IMG/VR virus record: IMGVR_UViG_3300031673_000148
Coordinates: 1 to 42,161 of that record
Direction: 5' to 3' (one strand)
DNA length: 42,161 bases
From: a virus
In this document: one piece after another, positions 4,935-36,506 of the stretch
How the letters are laid out: each line of letters starts with the position of its first letter
Numbering within the stretch: position 1 is the first letter of the stretch
Notes under the pieces: generated by a model
Databases searched by the model: none
Told to the model about the DNA's origin: nothing
What the model saw: the letters and a program-made list of their open reading frames with translations, nothing else
Translations under genes and position numbers: made by a program

Positions 4935-7900
4935 TCACCCTTGCAAAAACGGCAGCATGAAGTCATCCGAGTCGACCATCTCCGTCTGCTCCGCCGTCGC
5001 CGGATCAGACGTTCGCGAGAGTCCCTTCACGATACCCATCGGAGGGCCATGATACCTCGTGGAGAGCGTATACACGATCCCACACAAGGCGTCCGCGCAA
5101 TCCTTCGTGCCTCCCTGCGGGTGGTCAACCTTGTTCTTGATATTGTCCTTCTGAAGGGCACGCAACTCACGGAGCAACGGCTCGTACTCGTATACGAAGA
5201 TGCGCTCTTCGTAGATCGCAGATTTGAGCGTGTCATAAGCATCCATCGGCTTGTCCACCGACATCCGCTCCGCCGTCATACCCTTGGCTTGAAACTTCTG
5301 TAAACTGGATGCCGAATTATATTGGTCCATTGTGATCAGACCAATATGAAACCCGTGCTTCTGAAACTGATACACAATGCCGCGAATCATCCCCTGATCG
5401 ATCTCTCCACCGACCGGCGGGTTTACACGCAACACGAAATCAATCCAGATGATAGGCGCAGGCTCGGTGTACTCCTCCTGCGTCTCCTTGTCACGACGAC
5501 GGATCTGCTTATACCCAAGCACGCACCCCACAGCAATTCCAGTAGAGTCCGTATTCAACGACGGATCAATATGGACATGCCGCGCAAGCCCAGGATGATG
5601 CTTGGGCTGCCACGTGACAATCTTCTCAGCCCCATCACGAATCTCAATCTGGTGTGCAAGCTTGGTCCAGTTGATACCCCCGCCCTCGGTCTGCACCCAC
5701 TCCTCCGTGCTAAAGGGGTGCGTACGGGTCTCGTCAATGCACTTAACAATCCGATCGCGCTGCTGAATGAACGGCGATATTGACACCGTCGCGCAACCCG
5801 CAATGTCTCGGATACTACCGTCTAGATCTTCATCGAAGTCACGCCTAAAGTCGTCGGGAACTTCGATGACAACCATACCATCTTGCAGCTTGCCCTTGAC
5901 TAGCTCGACCTCATCCGGTTCCAAAATCTTCGAGGGGGTCGTGTCATTGCCGACCAATACGTGGAACTTCTTCTCGGAAAAGACACCCTCTTTGACATGC
6001 CAGACAGCGTAGTCACGAACGAATACAGTCGGATCGTCCTTAGACTGATTGACTCGCTTAGCCGTGAAGTCCTCATGCGTCTTCTTTGAAGACACGATAA
6101 TCATCATGCCAGGCAGCTTCCCGTGCCGCTGGAAGCGCGACTTCATACGACGAAGAAGCTGCGAGTAGAGAAACTCTGCGCGGTTCTCTACATCAGCCTT
6201 GTTCGCCGTGTTCTTCTTTTTCATCGGGGCAAGGAAATTGCTCTCATCGATCACGCATCCAAAAACGTTAAGGCCAAGGGCTGCACTGTCTGTCGATGCA
6301 CGGGCTGCTACCCAAATATTTCCCGGGAACGTCAGCTCACGCTTCGTCGGCTTGCACTCAAAGTTCTCGTGAAAGTATGGGCTCGCTTCGATCTTATTCG
6401 CGATGTTCTCAAACACGACCTTGATCGCAAGCGGCTCCGACACTGACAGCGCAACAAAAGCAATGTTCGTCCCCTGTCCAATGCCAAAGCTGCGGTGCGG
6501 GTCTTTCATGCACGACAGCTCGTAGATGATCCTACACACGGCAATTGAAGCAAAAAAGGTGTTATGAACAATGATACCGTTAGCAACAACATTCTCTGTC
6601 TCTGGGACAGTTAGATCGTAAACGTCGTGCCATCCAATATCCTCAATAGAGCTAATACGTTCCCAGACAACGTCCATCTCCGCAAACTTACGATACTTCC
6701 CCTCGTAGCCCACATTGCGACACAGTCTCCTGAACTTCTCACGACCTAGTCGCGACCCTTCCGCAAGGGCGCCGCCCGCGGACTTCCATTCCGCGTTCGT
6801 ATGTGGCCCGGTCTCTTTGCGGATCTCTTTCAGCTCCTCTGTCGTAATCGGCGCGATGTCCCAATTTGGGTTTGACTTAACCAGTTGAGCTTGCCGCAGA
6901 AGCTCCGCGCACTGATCCTCGTTGCCGAAGATTGGCCCAATAAATTCCAGGAACCGAATCTGCATCAAAGCATCGGCGATTTGCAGCCGCCATGCATCGT
7001 AATATTTCTTTGATCCATCGGCTTGCTTGATGGATTTCTGCTTGTAGCTCTTCCGTGCCACAATCCCAAACCGACGCAAAAGGTACTGGACGTCGTCGAT
7101 CAGGCCCTCGCTAGCAAGCGTTAGCTCGATCTTTCTCGGCGACCCCGTGTAGACGCTGCCATCTGTAAGAACGCGATTCAGAAACAGCGCCAGCTGTCGA
7201 TTGCTAAGCCCGAAGAATGACGCAGGAACACGCTTGTCCCTGGACAGGCAGTTGATCCCATAGCGATCGGTCCAAGGCTGAATTCCTTTTACCCCAACAT
7301 ACCAGGCCCCTCGCTCAAATTTCTCGCTGGATATACTGTCAAATCCTGGGACCTGGCTGACCGTTAAGATGAACTCGTCTACGAGCTTGCGATTGCCTTT
7401 GCAGTATTGACGGTTGCTGTAAGCAGTCGAACCGTCAGCAATTAAATACGCCGCCGTAATAACCTCGGCGTCTGTGATTTCAAGAACATTCTCAGGACAC
7501 GGTACCGACCGGGCGGTCGCAACCAGGTCGCCGGGTTTTAGGTCTAAGATCGGGACATACCCTGCGGGGGTAAGAACAGGATGATCTTTGCTGGCTCCGA
7601 TGTGCTGCCCCGACGCCAACGTCATACGGAAGCACTGCTTGTGGCCGCATTTCCAAATACGAGAAGGGGGCCGATGCTTGATCTCCACACCGTCCAACGA
7701 CGGAACCAGGATGTCTCGGCCGACCGCCTCCTTAACCGTCATCCGACGACCTGTTATACCGTCAACCGTTACAGTGTCTCCTGTAAGGCTCTTTCCCCAG
7801 CCGATCGAACCCGAAAGCACTGCTTCTCGGTAGTTACCGCTGAACAGCTCCTTCATGTCCTCCAAGAGCTTCGGATACAGGACATCGCACGTCGCGCCGA

Positions 7901-8168
7901 GGTAGTAGGGGTCCTTAACGAACGTCTCGATATCGACAGGCTGGCGCTTGTACTCGCTGTCCTGCAGGACATCGTAGATCCTGGTGGGAGGGGTTTCTCC
8001 GGCCTCTGCTAGCTCACGAAACGCCGGGTCATCCATCTCTCGCAAGCAAAGGCGGACCGCCTCCTGCTCCTGCGGGGAGAGGCTCGCGAACTCCTTCTTG
8101 AGCATCTTCGCAAGCTCTTGCGGCGTCTGCTCACTCTGGAGTCGACCTCCCAGATCTTTAATTGCCAT
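4935..8168 (-). CDS. terL: Terminase large subunit (ATPase/nuclease) with intein
   Basis: 1077 codons; about 667 residues remain after removal of a 410-residue intein, a normal size for a T4-type large terminase. TerL pumps DNA into the prohead and cuts it. The Walker A motif GSIGWGK-T (residues 120-126 plus the first C-extein residue) is split by the intein. Downstream are Walker B with catalytic acid (VFGCVIDESN) and an RNase H-type nuclease domain with three acidic motifs (HVHIDPSLNTDSTG, ITMDQYNS, KDCADALCG). The ATG at 8168 follows AGGCGGT. It lies between the TerS candidate and small structural genes. No extein motif looks damaged. Confidence 0.95.
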   Translation of the reverse strand: MAIKDLGGRLQSEQTPQELAKMLKKEFASLSPQEQEAVRLCLREMDDPAFRELAEAGETPPTRIYDVLQDSEYKRQPVDIETFVKDPYYLGATCDVLYPKLLEDMKELFSGNYREAVLSGSIGWGKSLTGDTVTVDGITGRRMTVKEAVGRDILVPSLDGVEIKHRPPSRIWKCGHKQCFRMTLASGQHIGASKDHPVLTPAGYVPILDLKPGDLVATARSVPCPENVLEITDAEVITAAYLIADGSTAYSNRQYCKGNRKLVDEFILTVSQVPGFDSISSEKFERGAWYVGVKGIQPWTDRYGINCLSRDKRVPASFFGLSNRQLALFLNRVLTDGSVYTGSPRKIELTLASEGLIDDVQYLLRRFGIVARKSYKQKSIKQADGSKKYYDAWRLQIADALMQIRFLEFIGPIFGNEDQCAELLRQAQLVKSNPNWDIAPITTEELKEIRKETGPHTNAEWKSAGGALAEGSRLGREKFRRLCRNVGYEGKYRKFAEMDVVWERISSIEDIGWHDVYDLTVPETENVVANGIIVHNTFFASIAVCRIIYELSCMKDPHRSFGIGQGTNIAFVALSVSEPLAIKVVFENIANKIEASPYFHENFECKPTKRELTFPGNIWVAARASTDSAALGLNVFGCVIDESNFLAPMKKKNTANKADVENRAEFLYSQLLRRMKSRFQRHGKLPGMMIIVSSKKTHEDFTAKRVNQSKDDPTVFVRDYAVWHVKEGVFSEKKFHVLVGNDTTPSKILEPDEVELVKGKLQDGMVVIEVPDDFRRDFDEDLDGSIRDIAGCATVSISPFIQQRDRIVKCIDETRTHPFSTEEWVQTEGGGINWTKLAHQIEIRDGAEKIVTWQPKHHPGLARHVHIDPSLNTDSTGIAVGCVLGYKQIRRRDKETQEEYTEPAPIIWIDFVLRVNPPVGGEIDQGMIRGIVYQFQKHGFHIGLITMDQYNSASSLQKFQAKGMTAERMSVDKPMDAYDTLKSAIYEERIFVYEYEPLLRELRALQKDNIKNKVDHPQGGTKDCADALCGIVYTLSTRYHGPPMGIVKGLSRTSDPATAEQTEMVDSDDFMLPFLQG
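6561..7790 (-). mobile_element. Intein in the terminase P-loop, LAGLIDADG type (410 aa)
   Basis: Begins with Ser rather than Cys (SLTGDTVTVDG, codon 7790-7788), ends NGIIVHN (codon 6563-6561), and Thr is the +1 residue. Block B is present (ASKDHPVLTPAG). Two LAGLIDADG-type motifs (AAYLIADGS near intein residue 113, LNRVLTDGSV near 204) mark an embedded homing endonuclease. Excision restores GSIGWGKT, so the ATPase is inactive until splicing. The frame is intact. Confidence 0.93.
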
Positions 8169-12431: not shown

Positions 12432-13199
12432 TCAGTTCCTTAGTCTCGCGGCGGCATCCTCCACCGCGTCTGTCAGTAGATCGTTGATATCCACGACGTT
12501 CTGCCGGCAGGCGTTCATGATGATGTCCATCGCCTGCTTGAGACGCGGACCCATGGCGACATACACATGATCCTTCCCTCCCCAAGAGAAGATCATGAAG
12601 TTGTAGTCAACCGTCTCCCCGTGCTCAGACATAATCTCAGATACGATCCTGCCTATGTCCCCGGACGTCTTCGCCGTCTTCGCTCGACTTTCAAAATCAG
12701 CCGCCTTCTCAGCCCCCATCGTCCCGCGAAGCCCGTCAGACACTTGCTTGACCATCTTCTTGATGCCGTCTTCGTTCGTATAGCCCAGCATCCTCGTGGC
12801 TTCGTGCCCGTACTTCTTCACCATCTCATTGTAGAGCGACACCATCTTTTCCGGGTTCATCCGGCCATGCAGCACGTTCAACCGAACAGCCTGCAGCTTG
12901 CGCAGGTCTTCCTCCTGCCATTTGTCGCCCTGTAGCACGTCAACAGGAATTTTCTTTAGGCCAAGCGCCTTGGCCGCCGCTGCGCGATTATGCCCGCCTA
13001 CGATCTCATAGTAGGTGCGCCCATCCTTCGCTTCCACGGCGGCGACAGTCGGCGGATCGATGAACCCAACCTGAGTTATTTGCTCTTTCAGAAGCGAGAA
13101 TTCGGCCTCTGTCATCTCGTTGGGGTTCCAGTCGGCCCCAATAAGCTCGCCAGGGTCAAGTTCAGCACGGGCGACGTCCATCGCCTGCCTCTTCTTCAC
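12432..13199 (-). CDS. ParB/sulfiredoxin-fold domain protein (255 aa)
   Basis: The N-terminal half has the ParB-domain layout: a leading strand region (LIGADWNPNEMTEAEFSLLK), then YEIVGGHNRAAAAKALGLKK, equivalent to the GERRyrAa box of ParB, and IPVDVL. The C-terminal half is helical and lacks the ParB central helix-turn-helix I would expect, so a segregation role is doubtful. ParB-fold domains can bind CTP or ATP, and some act as nucleases or kinases. ATG 13199 overlaps the previous stop (ATGA). It is part of the 14207-9065 operon. Confidence 0.75.
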   Translation of the reverse strand: MKKRQAMDVARAELDPGELIGADWNPNEMTEAEFSLLKEQITQVGFIDPPTVAAVEAKDGRTYYEIVGGHNRAAAAKALGLKKIPVDVLQGDKWQEEDLRKLQAVRLNVLHGRMNPEKMVSLYNEMVKKYGHEATRMLGYTNEDGIKKMVKQVSDGLRGTMGAEKAADFESRAKTAKTSGDIGRIVSEIMSEHGETVDYNFMIFSWGGKDHVYVAMGPRLKQAMDIIMNACRQNVVDINDLLTDAVEDAAARLRN

Positions 13200-19777: not shown

Positions 19778-20147
19778 GAGCAGCCTCCAGCAGGTCCTTA
19801 AGAAACCCAGATGGCACGAGCACCCAGTCCCTACTCACAAACCTCGGAGGATCGCCTATCTCAATCGACAACGCCGGGACCTTGCCCGTTCCGCTCGCCT
19901 CTTCGGTGATTTTACGAAGGTACTCGATCTCAATGCGGATGCTCTTTTTGTCCGTCCTCTTGCACTCGATCAATAGTTCAGGAACGTCAACGTCCCCGCG
20001 CCTGCCAGGTAACGCACCCGAGGCGGCCTGCCGACGACCGCCTAGCTCTTTTGCCAGGCGGTCCTCCTGCTTCATCGACTTGCGGCGACGCTTCTTGGTG
20101 TCCCGGTAGAAATACGAAGGCAGATTGCCCCCGTCTTCATCACTCAC
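19761..20147 (-). CDS. PD-(D/E)XK nuclease, Hjc-like resolvase candidate (128 aa)
   Basis: Motif order typical of archaeal-type Holliday junction resolvases and related phage nucleases: KQEDRLAKELGG (Glu), ASGALPGRRGDVDVP (Asp after a SG...GD strand), and LLIECKRTDKKS (E-x-K with a basic follow-on). The size (about 130 aa) fits. GTG 20147 with GAGGCC upstream overlaps the recA start. Together with RuvC this gives two unrelated junction-cutting folds in one operon; one may instead act as a repair or packaging nuclease. Confidence 0.72.
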   Translation of the reverse strand: MSDEDGGNLPSYFYRDTKKRRRKSMKQEDRLAKELGGRRQAASGALPGRRGDVDVPELLIECKRTDKKSIRIEIEYLRKITEEASGTGKVPALSIEIGDPPRFVSRDWVLVPSGFLKDLLEAARGTDA

Positions 20148-21316
20148 AAAGAGGCCTCGTGCTCATACACATCGCTCAGCAAGTGCTGCAAAAGCTTGGT
20201 CTTGAAGTCCTCGTAGTCTTGCTGTTCGGACATCCAGTGCTCCACCAGGTGAGCCTTGGTCTCATATTCGAAGCCGTCGCAGACCGTAGGCTGCTTCCCT
20301 CGGCCAACATTCACAAGCCCTACCTGCTGGCCAAGCTTGACCGCGTAATTCTCGTCTGCGATCTCGCCCGTGTGCTTGAACTCCGTCTCCTTGAGAACAA
20401 GAATGTACTCACCCTCCATCTTGGCAGGACCGCACTTGTTCTTCTCATTGCGGATCTTCATCGTCACGCTCTTGGTCCGCCCCGTCTCGTCCTTCTCGTA
20501 TTTGCCAGGAGACATCCTCGTCTCAGTGGACGTCGCGAACCCCTGGGCAAACCCTCCCGGCACCGTCTCAGGAGATCCAAACATGACACCCACCTTGTGT
20601 CGGATCTGATTCGTAAACCAGACCGTCGGGCGCCGACCGTCGCGCGCTGCCAAGGCGTTGATTCCGCTCACCACTTTGCGGAACATCTTGCCCAGCAACC
20701 TAGCCTGCTCGCCCATCGTCGACTCGCCGGCCGATTTCTCGATCTCTGCTATAGGCTCCATGAATGCCACGGAGTCAATCACGATCACGTCCACAGCGCC
20801 CGACCTGAGCAGCGAGTCGGTGATGTCGCAGGCCTGCTCTCCCGTCTCCGGCTGAGATAGGATCAGATGGTCCACGTTCATGAACCTGGAGGACCAAGTA
20901 TGGTCCCACACACCCTCAACATCTAGCCATGCAACATTCGCCTGCCGATAGTTTCCGCATGCACACGACGGCTCACGCTGCTCGTACCTGGGCGTCCAGA
21001 TGGGATACGCAGGCGTCCAGCAACTGCTGCACATGCGCTGCGCGCGCCCAGCCGCCCGCAGGAAAGCCGTCGTCTTACTGCTCGATTTCGGTCCGTAAAA
21101 CAGTGAGACGCGTCCGACGGGCAGTCCTCCTCCGAGGATGTAGTCGAGAGCTAAGATCCCCGTGGTAATCCTTGTCACTTCTTTGTACGAGAAGTCTCGC
21201 GCGAACTGGACCATGCCTTTGCCATAGTTCTTCGCTGCATGCTTGAACAGCAAAGCCAGCTGCTCCTCTCGGTCGTCCACGGCCGCCACAACTTCTTCGC
21301 TCTTCGCCTTCGACAT
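20144..21316 (-). CDS. recA: RecA/UvsX-like recombinase (390 aa)
   Basis: Core motifs: ITTGILALDYILGGGLPVGR at the start of the ATPase, a Walker A of GPKSSSKTT (75-83), LDVEG with the catalytic Glu, Walker B VIVIDSVAF, an NQIRHK segment, and VPGGFAQGFAT equivalent to the end of loop 2. It forms presynaptic filaments for recombination-dependent replication and repair. A Cys-rich insert (CSSC near 96-99, CACG near 118-121) between Walker A and the catalytic Glu probably binds zinc and is not in bacterial RecA, but is seen in some phage RecA-like proteins. Bracketed by nucleases and SSB. Confidence 0.9.
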   Translation of the reverse strand: MSKAKSEEVVAAVDDREEQLALLFKHAAKNYGKGMVQFARDFSYKEVTRITTGILALDYILGGGLPVGRVSLFYGPKSSSKTTAFLRAAGRAQRMCSSCWTPAYPIWTPRYEQREPSCACGNYRQANVAWLDVEGVWDHTWSSRFMNVDHLILSQPETGEQACDITDSLLRSGAVDVIVIDSVAFMEPIAEIEKSAGESTMGEQARLLGKMFRKVVSGINALAARDGRRPTVWFTNQIRHKVGVMFGSPETVPGGFAQGFATSTETRMSPGKYEKDETGRTKSVTMKIRNEKNKCGPAKMEGEYILVLKETEFKHTGEIADENYAVKLGQQVGLVNVGRGKQPTVCDGFEYETKAHLVEHWMSEQQDYEDFKTKLLQHLLSDVYEHEASL

Positions 21317-24548: not shown

Positions 24549-25628
24549 TCAACCAAGAAAGCGCACCTTGAGATCATTGATCTCATCATCAGTCATTTCA
24601 TTCGGATCTCTGCCGTCGGGGACGAGATACGTGTCTACATGGATCTGCTGGCTCAACCTATCAAAGAGGCGCTTGCTCGCATCAACCCCCGCCTGGTCTC
24701 CGTCCATGACCAGTACGACGCGGTCGAACCACCTCAAAATCTTGTCCACCTGCGCTTTATTGACGTAGGAGCCGTTGATCGCTCCTACGTTGGGGATTCC
24801 ACTTTGGCAAAGGTAGATCACGTCGAAGGCGCCTTCCGCCAGAAACACCGTGCCGCGACCGTCATCGCTCACAGAAAACCGATCCTCGCCGAACAAGTAG
24901 AACTCGCGTTTGAACCCCTTGCCGTGCATCCACTTCGGCCTTCGATCTTCCCATCCGCCAGGAAGGCACTGCGGATGCAGATCCAGAAGTCTACCCGCAA
25001 TGTTCACAAGCCGACCGATGTGGTCGTACTGAGGGATGCTGATTCTGCTCGCCCCTGGATGCCAGCCAAGCCTCCAACTCTTGATCGTCTCGTCGGTCAG
25101 TCGCCTCTCCGGGCCCCTCAGGTACTCCAGGACGTCCTCGTTTAGGAGATCTACCATCTCCTGCACTCGAACCTCGTCCTCCTCTGGAAGGGCCGGGTAC
25201 GCCTTCGCAAGCACTGCCGGGTCGGAGTAATCCTTGCCCTCGGTCCATACAAGGTCGGACGACGCGGATTTTGAGGGGGTCGAGTACATCCCCCCTTGTG
25301 CGTCCACTTTCTTGAACGCCTTGTCGAGATCCGACTGGTTGTTGCTGCTGATGAAAAAATGAAGGTCTGGAAGCTTGTTTCGAGACAAGATCTCGAATTT
25401 AGAAACCAGATCCCTCAGACTCCCATGAAAATTGCAGCGCACTCCATAGCAATTGGCACCGCTCGCATCCGCGTCCTTAACAAAGACCGCAAACGATGGC
25501 TGCTTATCCCGACCTCCAGAGTGCCTCCACGGGGCAAGCGGACAGGTGCTAATCACCTTGGCGCCGCTCTGCTTTATCCGGTCACAGCCAAGAGACCGGA
25601 GCACGTATTCAATGTTGCTTGCGTTCAA
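24549..25628 (-). CDS. DNA primase, DnaG/TOPRIM type (359 aa)
   Basis: Makes RNA primers at the fork. A zinc-binding N terminus (CPLAPWRHSGG, then CYGVRCNFHGSL), a RISIPQYDHIGRLVNIAGR strand region, and a TOPRIM domain with VFLAEGAFDVIYL (Glu) and VVLVMDGDQAGVDAS (Asp-x-Asp) are all present; GINGSY-like AINGSYV lies between them. Shorter than DnaG because the C-terminal helicase-interaction domain seems reduced. The only suitable start is TTG 25628 with a weak ribosome site. Upstream is a small unknown gene, then the gene block starting at the 26607 promoter. Confidence 0.9.
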   Translation of the reverse strand: MNASNIEYVLRSLGCDRIKQSGAKVISTCPLAPWRHSGGRDKQPSFAVFVKDADASGANCYGVRCNFHGSLRDLVSKFEILSRNKLPDLHFFISSNNQSDLDKAFKKVDAQGGMYSTPSKSASSDLVWTEGKDYSDPAVLAKAYPALPEEDEVRVQEMVDLLNEDVLEYLRGPERRLTDETIKSWRLGWHPGASRISIPQYDHIGRLVNIAGRLLDLHPQCLPGGWEDRRPKWMHGKGFKREFYLFGEDRFSVSDDGRGTVFLAEGAFDVIYLCQSGIPNVGAINGSYVNKAQVDKILRWFDRVVLVMDGDQAGVDASKRLFDRLSQQIHVDTYLVPDGRDPNEMTDDEINDLKVRFLG

Positions 25629-26613: not shown

Positions 26614-26883
26614 TTACAGTTGCCTCAAAAAAGTCTCAGGAATATGCTCGGGAGACCCCAGTTCTTCAATTATTTTGCCAATGAATCCAGACATTTCCGA
26701 GCGACATTCACGGTCACCCCGCACATGCAAAACCGTGCTGTCCGCCTGGATATTTGACGTCCGCACAATATCGTGACGAATGCCTGGACCCTCCACCCAA
26801 ACACGCAGACACCACACCGAGTCTTCTTTGTACACAGGCCGCCCACATCGGCGACATGTCGGCTCAGAAGGGGACGTCGTCAT
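26614..26883 (-). CDS. Small zinc-ribbon protein (89 aa)
   Basis: Contains CRRCGRPVYKED near the N terminus with further cysteines (VWCLRVW, RECRS). ATGs at 26895, 26892 and 26883 all overlap the end of the dnaB gene; a GGAGG lies immediately before the first and 12 bases before the last, so the exact start is uncertain. Function unknown. Confidence 0.55.
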   Translation of the reverse strand: MTTSPSEPTCRRCGRPVYKEDSVWCLRVWVEGPGIRHDIVRTSNIQADSTVLHVRGDRECRSEMSGFIGKIIEELGSPEHIPETFLRQL

Positions 26884-29800
26884 AGGACTCATCATCCTCC
26901 GCGAATTGCGCGTCTGCCCCACTGGGGGCGCCAGGATTGTAGTCGGCCCCCGTAGGCTGACCAGCGTCTACCTCAGAAAAGTCCATGGCCTGATGATTCC
27001 AGTTGATCTCAAACGTGCCTGGCTCACCCTCTCTGATCTTAAGCGCCTTGACCGAGAGCTTGAGCTGTTCACGCTGCTCTTCTGTCTGAATCAGACCATA
27101 GGCCGCATTGCTGTTATGAACCAGCAAGCCATCCGCTACAAAGCAACGCTCTGACTCATCGTCGGTGGTTACTGATATGTCGAACATATGGACACTTGAG
27201 GGAGCATCTTCCATAGAAACAACAGGCACCCACACCCAGTGCTCACCGCCCAGCCAGGGCCTTCCAAAGCTAGCCGTGTTCCTTTTGTGCCTCGCAGCCA
27301 GCCTGGCCCTAGCTTCATCACTCTTCCTGGAAGACATGAACCCTATACGGTCCATGTATCTATTGGCTTCCTCTCCATTCACTCTGATCCGATAGCCGCC
27401 GTCACGGGCCTGGTTGATACTCGCCGTCCGGGTGGTACAGCCCACACCAACGGACCAAAGCAACATATGCACGCCACGCGCAAGGCTCTCAGATACGGTG
27501 CTAAGCGTAATACTCCCGCTTTCCTCAACGCTGCCATCCGCATCAAACAACCCTCGCAAAAAAGCGCAGCGCACTGCTATATCTGACTCAAAAATCCCAG
27601 AAGGAACTTTCTTGTCAGCAGAAAGCTCGCGTCCGACGCCGAAGCGCCTCAGCTCTCGGATGATCTTCACAGAGTTCAAGTGGAGCTGGTCACAGGTTAT
27701 ACCCCCGTGCTGTCCCTTGGCCTTCAGCTTCGGCTCATATCCGAACTCATCTTTGATCGTCTTCGCTATTTTTGTCCGTGAATCCAGATCCCTTCCGTCA
27801 AATGCAATCTGCCAGCAATTGTCTCGCGCAATCCACCCGTCTCCAATCGCAACTCCAATCAGCTCTGCTACCCCGTCCGATATTTCACGCGCGCCAATCT
27901 CTAGACTCACGGCCCGCATCAGAAGATCTCCCGGCCGAATGTCTCCAGATCTTACCCACCGAGGAGATGCGCTGTCACCACGAAATGTCCACAGCCTGTG
28001 ATCGTGGCTTGATGTAAACGTCGAGCCGTCCGCAAGGGTAACGATGTTCTGCGATTTTTCCCCTGTCGCAACCGCTACAGCGGGGCGAAGCCCGGACGGC
28101 GTCATAACTTCAAACGAAGCAGACACCAGATCAGAAATCTTGCGGTACCCGCCCGACGTCGCAATCATCGAATCAGCAGGCAGGCAGTTCCAGCCTGCAA
28201 CGTCCGTGATCCCAATATTTTCCGCAACAACCGTCTGAGCCTGTCCTGTCTTGGCAGACCGATTGAACTGCAGGTTCGTCAAGACGGCGGCCCCCGTGCG
28301 CTTGCCTATCTTCTTGAAGTCGTCGAAGTTGTTCGACACTCTCTCGTGCCGATCTTTTCCGGTGTTCTTGATCAAGTACGGACCGTCAACGCACAGCAGC
28401 TCCGGCTTTTCATCCGTCACAAGAGCGCTCAGATTGTCGATCGAATAGTCGAAATCGCCGGCAACGATGTTGATACCGTCTTCCTCCAGCATCTCCTTCA
28501 CGCCCGCGTAGAGCTTGCTCTCGACGAACTCACCGAGCTTACCCGTACGCATCTCCCCGTAAGGCAGGCGCAGATGGAGTGCAAAGAACCGGCGGGCCAT
28601 CTGGCTCACGTTCATCTCCGTGGAGATCACAAGCACCTTCCGGCCCGCTGACCATGCCTTGTGAGCGCACTGAACAAGTGTCCAAGTATTGTGAACAAGG
28701 ACGTCGTTTGCGACGTAGCACGACGTAGGCTCTACGGTCAGATCGTATATCTTCTGCTCGCCAACGCTCTCGACAGATTCGACCGTGTCCCAGAAAAGCC
28801 CTGAGTCATACAGCCAGCGGTACTCGTCCTCGCAGCCGTACACCTCGCAAAACACCTTGAACCGGCTCAGGAGGAGCGAGTCATGCTGACCGAACAAGCT
28901 CCTCGTCATGAACTTGCTCGACCAGCCAAGCCTTATTCCTACCTCTTTCAGTAGGCCGCCCTGCCAGCGGCCAATGCGAGCCCGTGACAGCTTCTCGATT
29001 TCAGCACGCATCTCTTTCGAGAGTCGCGGAAATCCGACATTCGAGTTACGGCTTTTCGCAGCCACACGCTCCAGTGCAGCGCGTTTATCGCCCCACAGAT
29101 CGAACTCTTTGAGGAAGGTCTCATGACAAAACGAGTAGACCCTCAGGCGCCATGCGGCGAAGGTCTTACCGTTGCACTTACTGAGCTTGTCGGACAGCTT
29201 GCTCTGAATGCCGAAGCGCAAGAGTAGGCTCTGGACCTGCTCCAGCATCTTGCGCGAACCCAGGACCATTTCGGGTCCGTTGCTGTCAACGTACCCATCA
29301 CACATCCAAAACACAGTCAAAAATCTTGCCAGCTGATCCTTGGGCAACTTGAAAATGTCGTCAGGAATGGCCTTGTCGACGGACTTCTTGCCGTGAACTC
29401 CCTGCTTACGCAGCATCGTCGTCACTGGGTTGAGGTGCTGATCCTCGCATCGGATGCCGTACGTGTCTTCGGATCCATTGCGCAGCACCACTTCAGCTCC
29501 TAGCTCCTCGGCCGCCTCGCTGGCAATCCTCACGACTTCACGATCAGCCTTCGTGAACTCAACATTCCCATGAGTAAGCGAGCCGTCGGCCAGCAAGATA
29601 GCTAGCAAGTCAACTTCCGCCCCATGCATCGGCGTGGGCGCAAGTGCGAACGGCATACTTGCCGGAATAGCGACCGAGCCACCTGGCTCAATCTCATCTG
29701 CCCGCTTCCAGCCCATGGGGGTCAAGAACGGATGCTCAGGCGTCACGTCGACCGTACGCCCAGTGCCCAGCGTGAACCGGAAGCACTCCTTGTAGCCCGT

Positions 29801-30508
29801 ATCTACCTTCGCCGTGATCTCAGCGGGATGTATCGCCCTGTCCTTGCCCCAGGTCGTAACCATCGACAGGTCAGGATTTCGGTAGACTTCTTCGATCGTT
29901 CGCTGTACACCAGTCTTCGGATCCTGGATTAAAGTCAATGATTCTAGGCATTTGCCGACGCCCAAACGGCCCACTATAATGACCAGATCTTCAGGCCACC
30001 AACCCAACGTCTGCTCATCCATTGTAGGCCAGGGCGTAGGGATCCCACGTTTGCCTGCCTTAGCGTCCTCGTACTCCAAGAGGACCTGACGCCCAAGAGC
30101 CAGAAGCGACTCAACCCGCCGAACCGTGAGCGACTCCTTCTGAATCTTGCGATGGATCTCCGTCCAAGCCTCAGCAGCCCCCTTCGGATCCCTCTTTTCT
30201 AGGGACTCCTTGACCAGGTCAATGCCTTCACGCTGCACGCGCCAAAGGCGCCGGTTGCGTATCTCGCTCCAGAAGAATGCGAAGGGCTCGCTCTGCTGGG
30301 ATTCGATCGGCTTGTTCAGCTTCGCCTGAACAACCTCAAGCGAGGGGACGTCGCCGTACTCTCGGTAATATTCGCCAACGAAGAGGAACGCCTCTTTCCC
30401 GTCGCCGAAGAGATACTCGTCGGGGTCGATGCCCTGGTTGAGGACCTCCGCGAAGGCGTCCTTGCCTTCACGGACGATGGCGCAGACTAGCTCTTTGTCC
30501 AGATCCAT
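26864..30508 (-). CDS. dnaB: Replicative DNA helicase DnaB-like with two inteins
   Basis: 1214 codons; removing inteins of 421 and 358 residues leaves about 435, a typical DnaB size. The hexameric helicase unwinds the fork. N-extein: the helical N-terminal domain (LVCAIVREGKDAFAEVLNQG), linker helix, then Walker A GRLGVGK-T, split by intein 1. The middle extein has LVISTEMNVSQMARRF, Walker B LLCVDGPYL, and LTNLQFNRS. Intein 2 lies between ITDVAGWN and SNAAYGLIQ. The C terminus ends AEDDESYDDVPF, an SSB-like acidic tip unusual for a helicase. The start abuts the loader gene stop. Confidence 0.93.
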   Translation of the reverse strand: MDLDKELVCAIVREGKDAFAEVLNQGIDPDEYLFGDGKEAFLFVGEYYREYGDVPSLEVVQAKLNKPIESQQSEPFAFFWSEIRNRRLWRVQREGIDLVKESLEKRDPKGAAEAWTEIHRKIQKESLTVRRVESLLALGRQVLLEYEDAKAGKRGIPTPWPTMDEQTLGWWPEDLVIIVGRLGVGKCLESLTLIQDPKTGVQRTIEEVYRNPDLSMVTTWGKDRAIHPAEITAKVDTGYKECFRFTLGTGRTVDVTPEHPFLTPMGWKRADEIEPGGSVAIPASMPFALAPTPMHGAEVDLLAILLADGSLTHGNVEFTKADREVVRIASEAAEELGAEVVLRNGSEDTYGIRCEDQHLNPVTTMLRKQGVHGKKSVDKAIPDDIFKLPKDQLARFLTVFWMCDGYVDSNGPEMVLGSRKMLEQVQSLLLRFGIQSKLSDKLSKCNGKTFAAWRLRVYSFCHETFLKEFDLWGDKRAALERVAAKSRNSNVGFPRLSKEMRAEIEKLSRARIGRWQGGLLKEVGIRLGWSSKFMTRSLFGQHDSLLLSRFKVFCEVYGCEDEYRWLYDSGLFWDTVESVESVGEQKIYDLTVEPTSCYVANDVLVHNTWTLVQCAHKAWSAGRKVLVISTEMNVSQMARRFFALHLRLPYGEMRTGKLGEFVESKLYAGVKEMLEEDGINIVAGDFDYSIDNLSALVTDEKPELLCVDGPYLIKNTGKDRHERVSNNFDDFKKIGKRTGAAVLTNLQFNRSAKTGQAQTVVAENIGITDVAGWNCLPADSMIATSGGYRKISDLVSASFEVMTPSGLRPAVAVATGEKSQNIVTLADGSTFTSSHDHRLWTFRGDSASPRWVRSGDIRPGDLLMRAVSLEIGAREISDGVAELIGVAIGDGWIARDNCWQIAFDGRDLDSRTKIAKTIKDEFGYEPKLKAKGQHGGITCDQLHLNSVKIIRELRRFGVGRELSADKKVPSGIFESDIAVRCAFLRGLFDADGSVEESGSITLSTVSESLARGVHMLLWSVGVGCTTRTASINQARDGGYRIRVNGEEANRYMDRIGFMSSRKSDEARARLAARHKRNTASFGRPWLGGEHWVWVPVVSMEDAPSSVHMFDISVTTDDESERCFVADGLLVHNSNAAYGLIQTEEQREQLKLSVKALKIREGEPGTFEINWNHQAMDFSEVDAGQPTGADYNPGAPSGADAQFAEDDESYDDVPF
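27113..28186 (-). mobile_element. DnaB intein 2, LAGLIDADG type (358 aa)
   Basis: Starts CLPADSMIATSGG (codon 28186-28184), has a block-B SSHDHRLWTF, two LAGLIDADG-type motifs (ELIGVAIGDGWI; LRGLFDADGSVEE), and ends DGLLVHN (codon 27115-27113) before Ser. All splice residues are present and the frame is intact. Confidence 0.93.
28688..29950 (-). mobile_element. DnaB intein 1 in the Walker A motif, LAGLIDADG type (421 aa)
   Basis: Starts CLESLTLIQDPKTG (codon 29950-29948), carries DVTPEHPFLTPMGW (block B), two endonuclease motifs (LLAILLADGSLTHG; FLTVFWMCDGYVDS), and ends NDVLVHN (codon 28690-28688) before Thr. Excision joins GRLGVGK to TWTLVQ, restoring the P-loop. The site is equivalent to that of the terminase intein. 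Confidence 0.93.
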
Positions 30509-31171
30509 CTAGTCATCACCCATGATGACCGATTGCATCTGCGCACGCTTGTCACCGTACATGTTAGCCCCGTCAACATGGATGGCCTGCATCGCGGCGC
30601 CTATCTCGTGCTTAAGATCAGAATACTCATCCCTGTCCATGATTCTGCCAAACGACCCAGTCAATATGGTTGACAGCAGATTTTGCCGCCGCTCGGAGAT
30701 GAGGGCCGCCAGCTTCGCTGGCCCAAATACGTTGTCCGTAAAGAACTCCAGATTGATCCCATCAATCACCAGCAGCGACGTCTCCATGATCTTCTGCCGA
30801 ATGGTAACCCCGTCGGTTCCATCTCCGTACAGCGCATTTTTGCCCTCGAACTGCAAGTCACGGAGCCTGGGGTACGTGATGAAGTACCCAGAGACGTATC
30901 TGCGAATCGCCTCTTTTAGGATGATCGCAGCGCAACTGGTTTTGCCTACGCCTCGCGCTCCCATGATGACAAGTCCGTACCCGTTCTCGACCATCGTGTC
31001 GATCTTCTTGCAAAACCTAGACACGATCGGGCGTACGTCGTCGTCCTGAATCTTCTCAACCTTCGCACCCCAATGCTCACGCGGAAGCGTGATTCTGGTC
31101 AGGTCTTTCTCTGTAATCCGGCGTCGAACATTCTTGACGTACTTGCCATCGCCATCCTGATCAATCGTCAT
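30509..31171 (-). CDS. DnaC-like helicase loader, AAA+ ATPase (220 aa)
   Basis: Walker A GARGVGKTS (71-79), Walker B LLVIDG (133-138), a sensor-like STILTGSFG, and a C-terminal LKHEIGAAMQAIHVDG. The size and position, directly between initiator and DnaB, fit a DnaC/lambda-P-type loader that places DnaB on origin DNA. Overlaps the initiator stop by four bases (ATGA) and its own stop abuts the dnaB start, so loader and helicase are translationally coupled. Other small AAA+ proteins such as IstB share this fold, but context favours the loader. Confidence 0.82.
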   Translation of the reverse strand: MTIDQDGDGKYVKNVRRRITEKDLTRITLPREHWGAKVEKIQDDDVRPIVSRFCKKIDTMVENGYGLVIMGARGVGKTSCAAIILKEAIRRYVSGYFITYPRLRDLQFEGKNALYGDGTDGVTIRQKIMETSLLVIDGINLEFFTDNVFGPAKLAALISERRQNLLSTILTGSFGRIMDRDEYSDLKHEIGAAMQAIHVDGANMYGDKRAQMQSVIMGDD

Positions 31172-32733
31172 AGCTCAAACTTTCCCTTACCCGACCTATC
31201 CATGATCTCACGGGCGTTTGATTTTACGTCCTGGACCATTGCCATGATCCTGGACCGGTAGCCAAACAGAAACCCTATCGTCGGGTAGCTCGTATCGAGC
31301 TTCAGCTTCTTTTTCAAGTGATCCCAGTTCTCACAGCAGAAGTCCCAGGCTTTCGCGACCAAATCCAGATCACCCCCGTAGACCTCCAGCAGCTGCTTCG
31401 CCTGAGATCGCTCCTGCGTCAGCCACTTCCCCCACGGAACCTCCGGGAAGTACCTCTCGAATGAAGCCTGGCAGTGATCGTGAAGCTTGCTCCCAGCCGT
31501 CTGCCGCTTCTTCTTCGCCGCTGCCTTTTCCTTCGCATGCTCTGCAGCCTCACCAGACGCCTCCTGAGCGGCTTTCCGCTTCCGGCGGCGCGCTGCCCTA
31601 GCCTCACCCACATCCGCCGCCCTGCGGCCCGCTGAGCGCGTCAGAGCCCTCGCCTGCTCCCGCCGTCGGTCGGCCTCGATTTCAGCCGGCGTGCGCGGGC
31701 CGTCGTCGGCCGAGGTGTCCACATCCTCCTCGCGACCAAGCTCGGCTTGCTCTCGCATCGGCACGAGGGTGTCTCGCGCCAGCGAGATGCCCTCGGTCTC
31801 CCGCGAGGCGCCGAGGCCGAAGGCCGAGGTGCCCCTTGTCCCTCGCGAGGACCCCGGGTCCGAGCGAGGTGTCGTTTCTTCCCCACGAGGAGCCGAGGCC
31901 GAAGGCCGAGGTGACTTCGTGGTCGCACGAGGGCCTTGGCCCGAGGGCGAGGTGTCCTGGTCTTCCACGACGAGCCCCGGCTCAGCATGAGCCTGTGCCG
32001 GGCGGACCTCGGCGAAGCCGGGTTCGCCCCGAGCGCAGCGAGGGCTTTCTGAATCCCATTCTACTTCTCCATATTCTAAGTCTATACATATGCGGCCACT
32101 TTTGGCCGGCGGAGTGCGGCCACTTTTGGCCGCCATCGTGCGGCCATTTTTGGCCGGTCGACGGCCATCATCATTACAGCTACTTACGTCGTTCGATCGT
32201 CGCGCTTCGGCCGGTCGACGACCATCCTCATTACAGTCACTTACGCCATCCTCCTCGTCGTCGACTTCGCCCTTCTGAGCCTCGTTCACTTCCAGATCAA
32301 GGCTCCTGATCAGCCTCACCTTCTCCTCGGATCTCTTGCCTGCGATCAGCCTATCGAAGTGCACGAAGGTGTCCGGGTTGTAGTTGGCAGAAGGCCGCAC
32401 GATGATCTTGACGTGGCTCCTCCCTAGACCCCGCGAAGAGCACCTGATAAAACCAAGCCTCCTCAGACTCGCCACCCTCCTTCGCAACGTCCTCAGGGGT
32501 TCCCCGACCTCCTCAGAAAGTCGCCCCCAGGACATGATCGTCTCACCCGTGTCATTCTTTGATCCGCCGCGAAATGTGTTACAACACCTGTATCTCAGGT
32601 ACCAAAGGATCCCCTTCTCAGCCCAGGTCAATCGCGCATCGGTAAGCTCAGCCCCATATACGCATACAAATCTTGCATCTAACTCGGGAACTACTTCATT
32701 CTCAAAATCAGCAAGAGATCCCATGCTTTTCAT
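31168..32733 (-). CDS. Replication initiator candidate (lambda O-like layout, 521 aa)
   Basis: ATG 32733 (MKSMGSLADFENE) has GGAAGGAATTC upstream. Residues about 30-120 form a winged helix (WAEKGILWYLRYRC, then MSWGRLSEEVGEPLRTLRRR and LGFIRCSSRGLGRS). A long low-complexity linker (about 150-400) contains the DGRRPA and AKSGRT repeats encoded by the DNA repeats at 32093-32245. The C-terminal domain (SFERYFPEVPWGKWLTQERS ... YPTIGFLFGYRSRIM) resembles the helicase-contact domains of phage initiators. Next to a DnaC-like loader and DnaB, this matches an O-P-B arrangement. The initiator role is inferred. Confidence 0.7.
   Translation of the reverse strand: MKSMGSLADFENEVVPELDARFVCVYGAELTDARLTWAEKGILWYLRYRCCNTFRGGSKNDTGETIMSWGRLSEEVGEPLRTLRRRVASLRRLGFIRCSSRGLGRSHVKIIVRPSANYNPDTFVHFDRLIAGKRSEEKVRLIRSLDLEVNEAQKGEVDDEEDGVSDCNEDGRRPAEARRSNDVSSCNDDGRRPAKNGRTMAAKSGRTPPAKSGRICIDLEYGEVEWDSESPRCARGEPGFAEVRPAQAHAEPGLVVEDQDTSPSGQGPRATTKSPRPSASAPRGEETTPRSDPGSSRGTRGTSAFGLGASRETEGISLARDTLVPMREQAELGREEDVDTSADDGPRTPAEIEADRRREQARALTRSAGRRAADVGEARAARRRKRKAAQEASGEAAEHAKEKAAAKKKRQTAGSKLHDHCQASFERYFPEVPWGKWLTQERSQAKQLLEVYGGDLDLVAKAWDFCCENWDHLKKKLKLDTSYPTIGFLFGYRSRIMAMVQDVKSNAREIMDRSGKGKFEL
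31810..31913. repeat. Direct repeat (22 bases, two identical copies) in the initiator gene, read in two frames
   Basis: A 22-base GC-rich unit (core GCCGAGGCCGAAGGCCGAGG) occurs at 31810-31831 and 31892-31913. The 82-base offset is not a multiple of three, so one copy encodes TSAFGLG and the other PRPSASA. Related CGAGGTG words surround them. Repetition is therefore at the DNA level. Confidence 0.8.
32048..32092. other. AT-rich stretch beside iterons, candidate unwinding element
   Basis: About 45 bases rich in A/T (for example CCATATTCTAAGTCTATACA) stand out in otherwise GC-rich coding sequence and directly adjoin the three palindromic repeats. This is the arrangement of lambdoid and plasmid origins; the function is inferred. 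Confidence 0.5.
32093..32156. repeat. Three iteron-like palindromic repeats at 24-base spacing, candidate origin
   Basis: CGGCCACTTTTGGCCG at 32093-32108 and 32117-32132, and CGGCCATTTTTGGCCG at 32141-32156. Each is an inverted repeat (CGGCCA...TGGCCG), and starts are exactly 24 bases apart (eight codons, encoding AKSGRT-like repeats). Regularly spaced dyads inside an initiator gene beside AT-rich DNA are typical of O-type origins. Confidence 0.75.
32152..32245. repeat. Two 37-base direct repeats next to the iterons
   Basis: Copies at 32152-32188 and 32209-32245 begin GGCCGGTCGACG and share ATTACAG and ACTTACG, with about four differences; 57 bases apart (19 codons, encoding a DGRRPA repeat). 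Within each copy, GGTCGACG is partly palindromic. Confidence 0.75.
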
Positions 32734-32748
32734 ATGAATTCCTTCCGG

Positions 32749-32789
32749 GAATGAGAGGGGCGCGTCCGTGCAAGACGCCCCTCTCATTC
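32749..32789 (-). promoter_or_regulatory. Strong mRNA hairpin directly before the initiator ribosome site
   Basis: A perfect 14-bp stem (GAATGAGAGGGGCG / CGCCCCTCTCATTC) with a 13-base loop. No T-run follows on either strand. On the minus strand it ends five bases before GGAAGGA of the initiator gene, so it may control initiator translation or protect the mRNA 5' end. Confidence 0.6.
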
Positions 32790-32853: not shown

Positions 32854-33198
32854 TCACCGATCGCCCTTGCTGTTTTTTGCAACATTAATTGTCTTGATGG
32901 CCGTTTGGCCATATCCACGAGGCGTGCAAGCGATGTAACCAAGCCTCTCCAATGAGCGCATACGCCTTGCCGCGGTCTTCGTATGGACACCAAGCTCTAC
33001 TGCAATGGCAGTCAGTCCGGCATCTGTCCTAACAGCATCTGGCGCGATAGATCTCAACGCAAGTAGTTGCCTTAGCTCTCCGTCTGAGATATCTTTGTCG
33101 AAGATCTCGGAGCGCAATACGTAGACGCAGTCCACGTTGTCGAGCCCGTCCTGGCTCAAGTCTTCAGGGATTTCTGACTCATCGATCGACATCATCAT
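32854..33198 (-). CDS. Winged-helix protein, paralog of the initiator DNA-binding domain (114 aa)
   Basis: The segment ELRQLLALRS...LTAIAVELGVHTKTAARRMR and LERLGYIACTPRGYGQTAIK parallels the initiator's ILWYLRYRC...LSEEVGEPLRTLRRR and LRRLGFIRCSSRGLGRSHVK in order and spacing. It probably arose by duplication and could compete for or help occupy origin sites. Three ATGs stand in a row at 33198-33190, overlapping the previous stop; the distance to a terminator-like hairpin on the other strand is short. Confidence 0.7.
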   Translation of the reverse strand: MMMSIDESEIPEDLSQDGLDNVDCVYVLRSEIFDKDISDGELRQLLALRSIAPDAVRTDAGLTAIAVELGVHTKTAARRMRSLERLGYIACTPRGYGQTAIKTINVAKNSKGDR

Positions 33199-33434: not shown

Positions 33435-34040
33435 TCAGTATATGAAGTCAGATCCTATGTCGCGCACCAGAGATCTATACAAGTGCGGATGGGGATTCAC
33501 GCAAGGCCGCTGGCGGCGTAGCCGAGTAACCCCGTCGGCCCAGCCGATCTTCTCGTAAACATTCAGGTATGCCAACACCGCCGTGGCGCTCCGGCTTACC
33601 CCCGCCGCGCAGTGTACGAACACACGGCCGCTTGGCAACGACTCGTGAATGACCTCGGCAGCCTTGCGGAACACACCGCTCCTCGCCAGCCTGCCATCCT
33701 CAATCCCAATCTTTACAAGACGAACGCCAGGGATGTCGATCCGATAGTCGCACTCAACCGCCATGTTGACGACTGTCGAGATCTCACGGCTGCCCAAAAA
33801 TTGCTCGTCCTTGGCAACCGAATACCCGCCCAGCCAGATATCTGGAAACACATGATCTGCGTTGAGGAATTCTGAAAAAGGCAGCTCAAGGTTTTGTTTG
33901 AGCTTCACATCCCATGCCTCTTCATAGGCTGCCATCGTGTGCCGGGCTTCATCAGGCATCTCGCTCACTCCCTCCTTTCGCCCGCCAAATTCATCAGTGT
34001 AATCACGGCAGATCGAAGGAAAGGCAAGCAAAGCACCCAT
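33435..34040 (-). CDS. Dual-specificity protein phosphatase (201 aa)
   Basis: Signature FVHCAAGVSRSATAVLAYL (nucleophile Cys144, Arg150), the general-acid Asp in VKIGIEDGR (about 115), the substrate-loop strand DIWLGGYSVAKDEQFL near 67-82, and the late LRRQRPCVNPHPHL. This is the compact DUSP fold that removes phosphate from Ser/Thr/Tyr or RNA 5' ends. ATG 34040 has AAGGGAG; a second start (GTG 33968 or ATG 33959) also has AGGAGGGAG. All catalytic residues are present. Phage-encoded DUSPs are uncommon. Confidence 0.88.
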   Translation of the reverse strand: MGALLAFPSICRDYTDEFGGRKEGVSEMPDEARHTMAAYEEAWDVKLKQNLELPFSEFLNADHVFPDIWLGGYSVAKDEQFLGSREISTVVNMAVECDYRIDIPGVRLVKIGIEDGRLARSGVFRKAAEVIHESLPSGRVFVHCAAGVSRSATAVLAYLNVYEKIGWADGVTRLRRQRPCVNPHPHLYRSLVRDIGSDFIY

Positions 34041-34836: not shown

Positions 34837-35433
34837 TTAGTTCAGATATCTGGCAAGCCTGCGATGCATCGCAGCCCTAATCATCGCCAGATTCCAAACG
34901 GTTATGCGCTCGAAGCCGTTATGGCCGAGCGCGTCGCTGACCGCCGGGCTTAGGTCGATCATGCTTCTCCAGCGCCCAACACAGTCGTGCGAGGGACACA
35001 GCCCTGCTGGAGGACGCTGATACCTGGTCTTCATCACGTACCAACCGAGGGAACCCGATGAGACGTACGACGTATCGCCCTTGCTGCCAGTACCCGCGAA
35101 AACGTTTGCGCCGTACGGGCCTCGGTCCGTTACCTCGCACCAGGTGATCCGGTGCGTTCGAGGATTTCTTAGGATAAGGATCGACCCGCATGGATAGCTC
35201 CTGTGAGCACACATGTGCTCATCAGCGTTGACGTACTCATCGGGTCGACACTTGAGCGTGCCGCCTATCCATCGATCGCCTTCATCACCGAACCGCGTCG
35301 CATTACCATGCTGGGATGGATTTGGCAATGCCTCGGGAGACATAAAGCTCATTGCCAGGGCAGCAATGGCGCCTTGCCATCCAGGTGGGCCCTTGACCGC
35401 CAAGGCGGCCCACTGGAGCAGTCCATCAAGCAT
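34837..35433 (-). CDS. RlpA-like double-psi beta-barrel protein (198 aa)
   Basis: Core: NATRFGDEGDRWIGGTLKC, PCGSILILRNPRTHRITWCE, VTDRGPYG with the conserved Asp, later MIDLSPAVSDALG and GFERITVW. This is the RlpA/expansin-type barrel, which in RlpA acts on peptidoglycan as a lytic transglycosylase and in other proteins only binds it. The N terminus has an apolar run (GAIAALAMSFMSPEALP) that could be a signal or anchor. It may be the endolysin or a wall-remodelling factor. Starts inside the ParB gene end (eight-base overlap). Confidence 0.75.
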   Translation of the reverse strand: MLDGLLQWAALAVKGPPGWQGAIAALAMSFMSPEALPNPSQHGNATRFGDEGDRWIGGTLKCRPDEYVNADEHMCAHRSYPCGSILILRNPRTHRITWCEVTDRGPYGANVFAGTGSKGDTSYVSSGSLGWYVMKTRYQRPPAGLCPSHDCVGRWRSMIDLSPAVSDALGHNGFERITVWNLAMIRAAMHRRLARYLN

Positions 35434-36280
35434 CAGCTACCACTTGTTGAAGCGTCTTGCGCTCGCCCAGCGTCCATTCCAACGCGACAAGGATGCCGAG
35501 AGCGAAGCTGTCGTCCTTCAGCGCCTCTCCGTTGTTGGCCCTTAGCCGGTCGATCTCATAGCGAACCTCTGTCGACGTAGGGCGGATGATGCGGCCCGAA
35601 CTCTCGCGGACCTTCTTCCGAACAATCGCCTCTTCAATGTCAGCAGGCTCTCCCGAAATCCCAGCAACTCGCCCGTTCTCTCCGTTTGCCCCGTTCGCCG
35701 CCCCAGCTATCAGCCGGTCGACCTGCTCGACCTGGTCCGTATCGGGAAGGGTGGCGATGTTCCGAGCAAAGCCGTAGGATACGGCACCCGCTTCAACGGC
35801 CTGGGTGAGCTGTGGCGTCGCCTGCCGGCGAAACTGCATCGCCGATGAAACCCAACTCTGGGATTTCCCAATCTTCTCGGCGACATCCTTTTGTTTGTAG
35901 CCAAGGTTGAGCAAGATCTCAACACCTCGACATACCTCCAGGGGAGACAGCTCCGAGCGCTGGACGTTCTCCGTGATGTTCAAGACCTGCGCCTCAGCAA
36001 CCGAGCCCTTGAACTTTTTGACCTCGACTGTCTGAAACGCATTCGGATCGACGTCACGGATGCGTCGAATCGCCTCATGGCGCCGGAACCCCACGACGAG
36101 ATAGTAGTGGTCCGTGTGCTCCCCGTTCCTAACCTCGGACTGCAACACAGTCAAGGGCACCTGCAGCCCCACGGACCGTATCGATGCCATCAGGTCATCA
36201 ATGTCCTTCAGCTCCTCACGGGGATTCTTAATACCCTCGTGAAATTCGATCTCATCAAAGCGAACCTGTGCAGTGCTCAT
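35426..36280 (-). CDS. ParB/RepB/Spo0J-family protein (284 aa)
   Basis: N-terminal ParB domain (FHEGIKNPREELKDIDDLMA, LVVGFRRHEAIRRI, the GERR-equivalent box; VLNITENVQRSELSPLE) and a central helix-turn-helix (YKQKDVAEKIGKSQSWVSSA). Domain order matches true ParB, unlike the 12432 protein. A C-terminal acidic/helical region follows. No ParA is in the window, so it may regulate transcription or organise DNA rather than segregate it. ATG 36280 with AAGGAATAAC. Confidence 0.85.
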   Translation of the reverse strand: MSTAQVRFDEIEFHEGIKNPREELKDIDDLMASIRSVGLQVPLTVLQSEVRNGEHTDHYYLVVGFRRHEAIRRIRDVDPNAFQTVEVKKFKGSVAEAQVLNITENVQRSELSPLEVCRGVEILLNLGYKQKDVAEKIGKSQSWVSSAMQFRRQATPQLTQAVEAGAVSYGFARNIATLPDTDQVEQVDRLIAGAANGANGENGRVAGISGEPADIEEAIVRKKVRESSGRIIRPTSTEVRYEIDRLRANNGEALKDDSFALGILVALEWTLGERKTLQQVVADA

Positions 36281-36284
36281 CGAG

Positions 36285-36506
36285 TTATTCCTTGTATCCA
36301 CGGTGCTCGCGCATGACGCGCTTGGTCAAGTCGCAGAACTCAAATACCGGACACTCAGAACACGTCATGAGGCCTCGCAGCTCTCGACACTTGGTGACCT
36401 GGGCCTGGCGCATCCGGCGCTCGTATGCCTCCGTGTCGGGCTGAAACCCCTCAATCTCGACAAGCTTGCGTAGCTGGCCGAGAACGCTTTTATCATCGTC
36501 AGACAT
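36285..36506 (-). CDS. Small Cys-cluster protein, WhiB-like spacing (73 aa)
   Basis: ATG 36506 (MSDDDKSVLGQLRK) with AGGGCTT. The cluster KCRELRGLMTCSECPVFEFC has spacing C-x8-C-x2-C-x5-C; the last three match the C-x2-C-x5-C of WhiB iron-sulfur regulators and the CPV after the third is also WhiB-like, but the first spacing is much shorter. A basic helix follows (DLTKRVMREHRG). It may bind a cluster or zinc. Confidence 0.6.
   Translation of the reverse strand: MSDDDKSVLGQLRKLVEIEGFQPDTEAYERRMRQAQVTKCRELRGLMTCSECPVFEFCDLTKRVMREHRGYKE

Follow-up and report, generated by a model that had tools for sequence, protein, structure and literature searches.

A segment of tandem dyads and adjoining AT-rich DNA at positions 32047-32156 of a phage fragment, perhaps reaching to about 32245, is very probably a theta-type replication origin located inside its own initiator gene, in the stretch that encodes the protein linker. 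The fragment, referred to here as the window, comprises 42,161 nt (IMGVR_UViG_3300031673_000148, positions 1-42,161) and is not a complete genome. The high confidence in this assignment is due to the conserved anatomy of the region, and the best reading, drawn by analogy with described systems, is an in-gene origin in the style of lambda, SPP1 and the RepA_N plasmids. A candidate and testable replication origin is thereby placed in a family of uncultivated phages with contigs of up to 200 kb. It is also favoured, with appreciably less confidence, that this family relies on one lambda-type origin, placed within the initiator gene, in which the iterons turn over fully between relatives, the pitch, place and unwinding tract stay fixed, and orthogonal initiator-origin pairs co-evolve through the recognition helix.

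Tandem dyads within the initiator gene

The initiator matches two PHROGs described as 'replication initiation protein' (phrog_428 and phrog_8102, E 6e-4) and has an N-terminal winged helix and a C-terminal helical part joined by a long linker of low complexity. Translation probably begins at the ATG at 32733, which is preceded by GGAAGG and, on direct reading of the sequence, is better than the annotated ATG. The preliminary description placed a winged-helix initiator before a DnaC-like loader and DnaB, and this gene order holds (Table 1); the loader and initiator genes overlap by 4 nt, at the initiator stop. The inteins of DnaB carry LAGLIDADG domains, one of them sitting at the P-loop, and DnaB of one relative (L024) is an intein-free protein of 445 aa. 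Across the annotated initiator ATG there is a perfect 14-bp inverted repeat with a 13-nt loop (32749-32789). Directly upstream of the initiator, the minus strand encodes a small winged-helix protein (32854-33198) with 41% identity to initiator residues 89-129, possibly a truncated paralogue or a regulator, and this gene is likewise preceded by a comparable hairpin. A dual-specificity phosphatase-like gene lies at 33435-34040 (minus strand; DSPc E 1.4e-16), and in five of the six relatives described below a similar phosphatase-like ORF sits just ahead of the initiator.

As the preliminary description stated, three dyads occur at an exact start-to-start distance of 24 bp; they are perfect 6+4+6 dyads of the form CGGCCA-[CT]TTT-TGGCCG and are found some 630 bp into the gene. 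Along the coding (minus) strand the 37-bp repeats come first, followed by three iterons GGCCAAAA[AG]TGGCC and next by the AT-rich, purine-rich tract ATATGTATAGACTTAGAATATGGAGAAGTAGAATGG. The pair of 37-base repeats noted previously is present as a 40-nt pair with 88% identity, without a repeated counterpart in the relatives, which hold a single fourth dyad instead. The window has at most a degenerate remnant of such a dyad; its candidate is placed like the isolated fourth dyad of the relatives, 57 bp upstream of dyad 1. Further along the same linker is a second tandem repeat (31781-31976), which is GC-rich, has a period of 82 bp, contains CCGAGGCCGAAGGCCGAGGTG and sits in a linker stretch absent from the relatives.

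The array is far from what chance would provide. Synonymous codons were shuffled within the gene so that the protein stayed unchanged, and the observed tandem-dyad array score was never reached in 1000 such shuffles; it was 49 for the window initiator against 23-30 for fourteen other window genes. Given the peptide and the codon usage of the gene, three perfect dyads are expected with a probability of about 5e-6 (1 in 200,000 draws). The dyad motif, with up to 3 mismatches allowed, was found nowhere else in the 42 kb window, and none of 100 shuffles gave as many matches.

The roughly 45 bases of AT-rich DNA reported beside the dyads are also borne out: positions 32048-32091 are 68% AT in a window that is 43% AT overall, and the adjoining unstable, purine-rich tract is kept in the relatives. 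Of all 45-mers in the 1620-bp gene, the least stable one starts, in the coding direction, 2 bp beyond the last dyad, and it is the putative unwinding element; the most AT-rich place of the whole window is elsewhere.

Table 1. Positions of the candidate origin and associated genes in the window, and dyad consensus sequences (coding strand) of the relatives.
Feature	Position	Strand	Sequence	Remarks
Replication initiator gene	31168-32787	minus		539 aa as longest ORF, 1620 bp
Winged-helix DNA-binding domain	32383-32670	minus		residues about 40-135
C-terminal helical domain of initiator	31174-31515	minus		residues 425-538
DnaC-like AAA+ helicase loader	30509-31171	minus		phrog_50 E 1.2e-16, IstB_IS21 E 1.2e-6
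DnaB-family replicative helicase, two inteins	26864-30508	minus		phrog_19 E 3e-34, Intein_splicing E 1.7e-25 in two stretches
Phage primase	24549-25628
RecA-like gene	20144-21316
Dyad (iteron) 1	32141-32156		CGGCCATTTTTGGCCG	farthest from AT-rich tract
Dyad (iteron) 2	32117-32132		CGGCCACTTTTGGCCG
Dyad (iteron) 3	32093-32108		CGGCCACTTTTGGCCG	adjoins AT-rich tract
37-40 bp repeat, copy A	32206-32245
37-40 bp repeat, copy B	32149-32188			overlaps dyad 1; holds inverted half-site pair TGGCCG-TCGAC-CGGCCA
Candidate degenerate fourth dyad	32198-32213			10/16 identity to dyads, 3/6 arm pairs; tentative
Putative DNA-unwinding element	32047-32091			least stable 45-mer of initiator gene; 69% AT, 69% purine on coding strand
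Dyad consensus, G005			TAGGGKCAAAAATGCCCCTA
Dyad consensus, G002			GGGGACAAAWWTGKCMCC
Dyad consensus, G004			GTACACCTGCGTGTAC
Dyad consensus, L024			CGGACADATTTGTCC
Dyad consensus, G006			GGGAGYGAAAACGCTCCC
Dyad consensus, G007			CACGCGATCGNGTG

Arrays in related phages

Close kin were not found by look-ups in INPHARED and IMG/VR with the initiator or loader, and the replication module has no DNA-level match among 50,697 phage records. Entry to the family was obtained through the RecA-like gene, which led to five IMG/VR contigs, and more were recovered by scans with loader and RecA alignments; a scan of GTDB genomes with the loader alignment returned nothing, and one with the winged-helix alignment returned no further relatives. 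Initiator homologues were present in seven records (G002, G003, G004, G005, G006, G007 and the L024 contig, also designated G010), of which G002 and G003 are near-identical and were counted once, leaving six relatives besides the window. All are metagenomic contigs of uncultivated phages, 55-200 kb in length, and their initiators are 27-29% identical to that of the window over the full protein alignment. The DnaC-like loader is kept in all six, as is its adjacency to the initiator, and the winged-helix domain of each scores above the Pfam cut-off for HTH_36.

All six relatives carry tandem dyads at the place that corresponds to the window array, in the stretch of the initiator gene that codes for the linker, and the dyad sequences are mostly unrelated (Table 1). 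The pitch is 23 bp in five relatives; in G007 it is 24 bp with one 23-bp step, and in the window it is 24 bp. An isolated fourth dyad lies upstream of the array at 50 bp in G002, L024 and G006, 62 bp in G005, 41 bp in G004 and 39 bp in G007. A score combining dyad symmetry and repeat identity was significant against codon shuffles in six of the seven genes (p<=0.001) and reached 0.03 in G007 (L042), whose array is weak (p 0.07 with a wider choice of spacer). The combined score was used for G005 (L020) and G007, for which a palindrome-only score, without repeat identity, was not significant. G002 and L024 have a common dyad core and also similar recognition helices, which is at most suggestive.

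The position of the unstable tract is shared as well. Measured from the array end, the start of the least stable 45-mer in the entire gene ranges from 10 bp before to 9 bp beyond in six of the seven genes, and in G006 the 45-mer at the array end is second least stable, tied to two decimals with the first. A rough binomial estimate for this placement is about 1e-10, a value that overstates independence because the genes are related. The 45 bp just past the array have a purine fraction of 0.62-0.80 on the coding strand across the window and relatives. Just past the tract of G005 (L020 1889-1913) there is a perfect 10-bp inverted repeat, GCGAATCAGC-ATGAA-GCTGATTCGC, which might form a single-strand hairpin at the origin; G004 (L023) has a similar inverted repeat, and it is not clear in all relatives.

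In the window each dyad unit is translated, as previously noted, into an in-frame eight-residue repeat (PAKNGRTM, AAKSGRTP and PAKSGRIC). The units could accordingly be read as a functional peptide repeat, with basic AK[S/N]GR motifs in a disordered linker and the dyads as a by-product, and the 24-bp pitch and the similarity of the three octapeptides agree with this. The relatives contradict it. Because a step of 23 bp does not correspond to a whole number of codons, consecutive copies are read in codon phases 0, 1 and 2 and their peptides differ; those of G006, for example, are the unrelated RERKRSLV, VGSENAPS and EGVKTLPE, and no peptide repeat survives in any of the five relatives with this pitch. 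Moreover, the linker is the least conserved segment of the initiator, with a mean pairwise identity of 21% against 49% for the winged-helix domain and 41% for the C-terminal domain, and the low probability of three perfect dyads given the peptide also speaks against a by-product. This explanation is thus very improbable. The preliminary description would have been undermined by relatives that conserve the peptide repeat and not the DNA dyads; the opposite was found in the six homologues, where the dyads are kept in place and geometry. As far as comparison of these genes can tell, the relatives show cleanly that the in-gene origin is selected as DNA and not as a protein repeat, and that its geometry, namely the 23/24-bp pitch and adjacent unwinding tract, outlasts the DNA motif as well as the peptide it encodes. 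This persistence of geometry provides a rule by which in-gene origins can be sought elsewhere among phages.

Comparison with known origins and a proposed mechanism

The origin of lambda lies in the middle of the initiator gene and consists of dyad iterons with an A-rich centre and an AT-rich tract (PMC5043065, PMC7466680). The likeness to the lambda O origin that was proposed at the outset applies to the layout: A-centred dyads mid-gene, a pitch of 23-24 bp (the annotated iterons of lambda O follow one another at 20, 24 and 23 bp) and an AT-rich tract of about 40-45 bp 3' of the array. With lambda O as a control, the same script gave the same picture: none of 500 shuffles scored as high as the array, and the least stable 45-mer lay 11 bp beyond its last iteron. 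The likeness does not extend to the protein, which is not detectably Phage_rep_O: PF04492 gave no match at E 0.1 in the seven initiators, compared with 5.7e-36 for lambda O itself, and hhalign of A4 against lambda O gave a probability of 0.1%, with some relatives scoring weakly against O-like PHROGs (phrog_391, phrog_678). Set against the lambda O family (PF04492 / phrog_277), the in-gene tandem dyads and AT-rich tract are therefore present and the sequence match is absent. The relatives have four iterons, the number expected for that family; the window has three perfect ones and a degenerate candidate for the fourth. In contrast to lambda, this phage encodes its own DnaB, and its loader belongs to the DnaC-like AAA+ proteins.

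In SPP1, oriL lies within gene 38, with direct repeats and an AT-rich unwinding element, and is followed by the loader and helicase genes (PMC6316719). On gene order and this published description, the arrangement of initiator (with origin), loader and DnaB helicase resembles gp38-gp39-gp40. Another origin exists in SPP1 outside this gene, whereas in all contigs tested here the motif is confined to the initiator gene, and a second copy of the origin repeats was absent from G005 and G006 (about 200 kb each; the records may be incomplete). In RepA_N plasmids such as pSK41 and pTZ2162, the origin is central in rep, semi-palindromic direct repeats converge on a poly-A tract, and the protein linker encoded by the origin is dispensable (PMC5703833, PMC7145576). 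The A-centred dyads inside the initiator gene resemble this layout, and the winged-helix region gave weak wHTH fold matches, plasmid RepA-DNA included, among them the Rep/initiator structures 4pql, 5kbj and 4pt7 at E about 0.01 in a low-confidence region of the model. The differences are that this is a phage and not a plasmid, that it has its own helicase and loader, and that its C-terminal domain has no DnaD-like match in the PDB; RepA_N PF06970 gave no match at E 0.1 in the seven initiators. The C-terminal domain is modelled as helical (mean pLDDT 79; the full-length model is poor beyond it, pLDDT 52), shares weak fold similarity with other phage HTH or initiator proteins, and had no PDB match with E below 1 and no DnaD/RepA-CTD relative. 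Judged from these profile and fold searches, the initiator is an HTH_36-type winged-helix protein with a C-terminal domain of its own. It matched neither Phage_rep_O nor RepA_N. The region would work like a lambda or SPP1 origin, with membership in either family not established. No literature on iterons in jumbo phages was found.

A plausible course of initiation can be outlined. Initiator dimers would bind each dyad, presumably through the N-terminal winged-helix domain, and adjacent dimers at a pitch of 23-24 bp could form an O-some-like complex that strains the DNA. The neighbouring AT-rich, purine-strand tract would then melt, and the C-terminal domain of the initiator, the presumed site of loader and helicase recruitment, would bring the DnaC-like loader, which would set the phage DnaB on the opened strand. 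The phage primase and the replisome would follow.

Alternative functions of the dyads and other features of the window

Dyads are commonly bound by winged-helix proteins acting as dimeric repressors. The sites may thus be operators at which the initiator, or the small winged-helix protein encoded next to it, represses or attenuates the replication operon, and the adjacency of this second gene is in keeping with such a role. Several observations make this improbable. The dyads lie deep within the gene and away from the promoter, and in nearly every relative three to four tandem sites abut the least stable DNA of the gene. Motif copies are absent near promoters in the contigs tested, and in these five contigs (window, G004, G005, G006 and G010) the motif occurs solely in the contig's own array: four sites in 194 kb of G006, three in 200 kb of G005, two exact sites in 110 kb of G004, and the array only in the 55 kb of L024/G010. 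This confinement argues against a dispersed operator. Furthermore, known initiators with such a layout use these sites as the origin (PMC7466680, PMC5703833, PMC6316719).

Another explanation is that the dyads act in mRNA as stem-loops for attenuation, translational pausing or RNA stability, since the transcript of the segment folds far better than shuffled sequences (z -4.56). RNA folding is common to any dyad, and this explanation is rejected as highly unlikely on the fixed 23/24-bp pitch, the adjacency to unstable duplex and the match to the lambda layout, all of which it leaves unexplained. Finally, a functionless tract of recent tandem duplication or slippage, to which the near-identity of the window units and the 82-bp-period repeat in the same gene might point, has almost no chance of being correct, as it is contradicted by six relatives with independent arrays of different sequence in the same place and by the internal dyad symmetry of each unit.

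The GC-skew check that had been suggested for locating an origin in this phage was uninformative because skew follows gene orientation, and it was dropped as a marker. Skew in the window is negative nearly throughout, and in G005 and G006 it switches sign about 8-10 kb upstream of the array, at the point where gene orientation flips.

Elsewhere in the window, the terminase large subunit ORF (4935-8168, minus strand, 1077 aa) has an apparent internal intein-like stretch; its terminase match is spread over residues 73-1045, with matches to intein-bearing families in between. The fragment also encodes two different ParB-like proteins, at 12432-13199 and 35426-36301 (minus strand).
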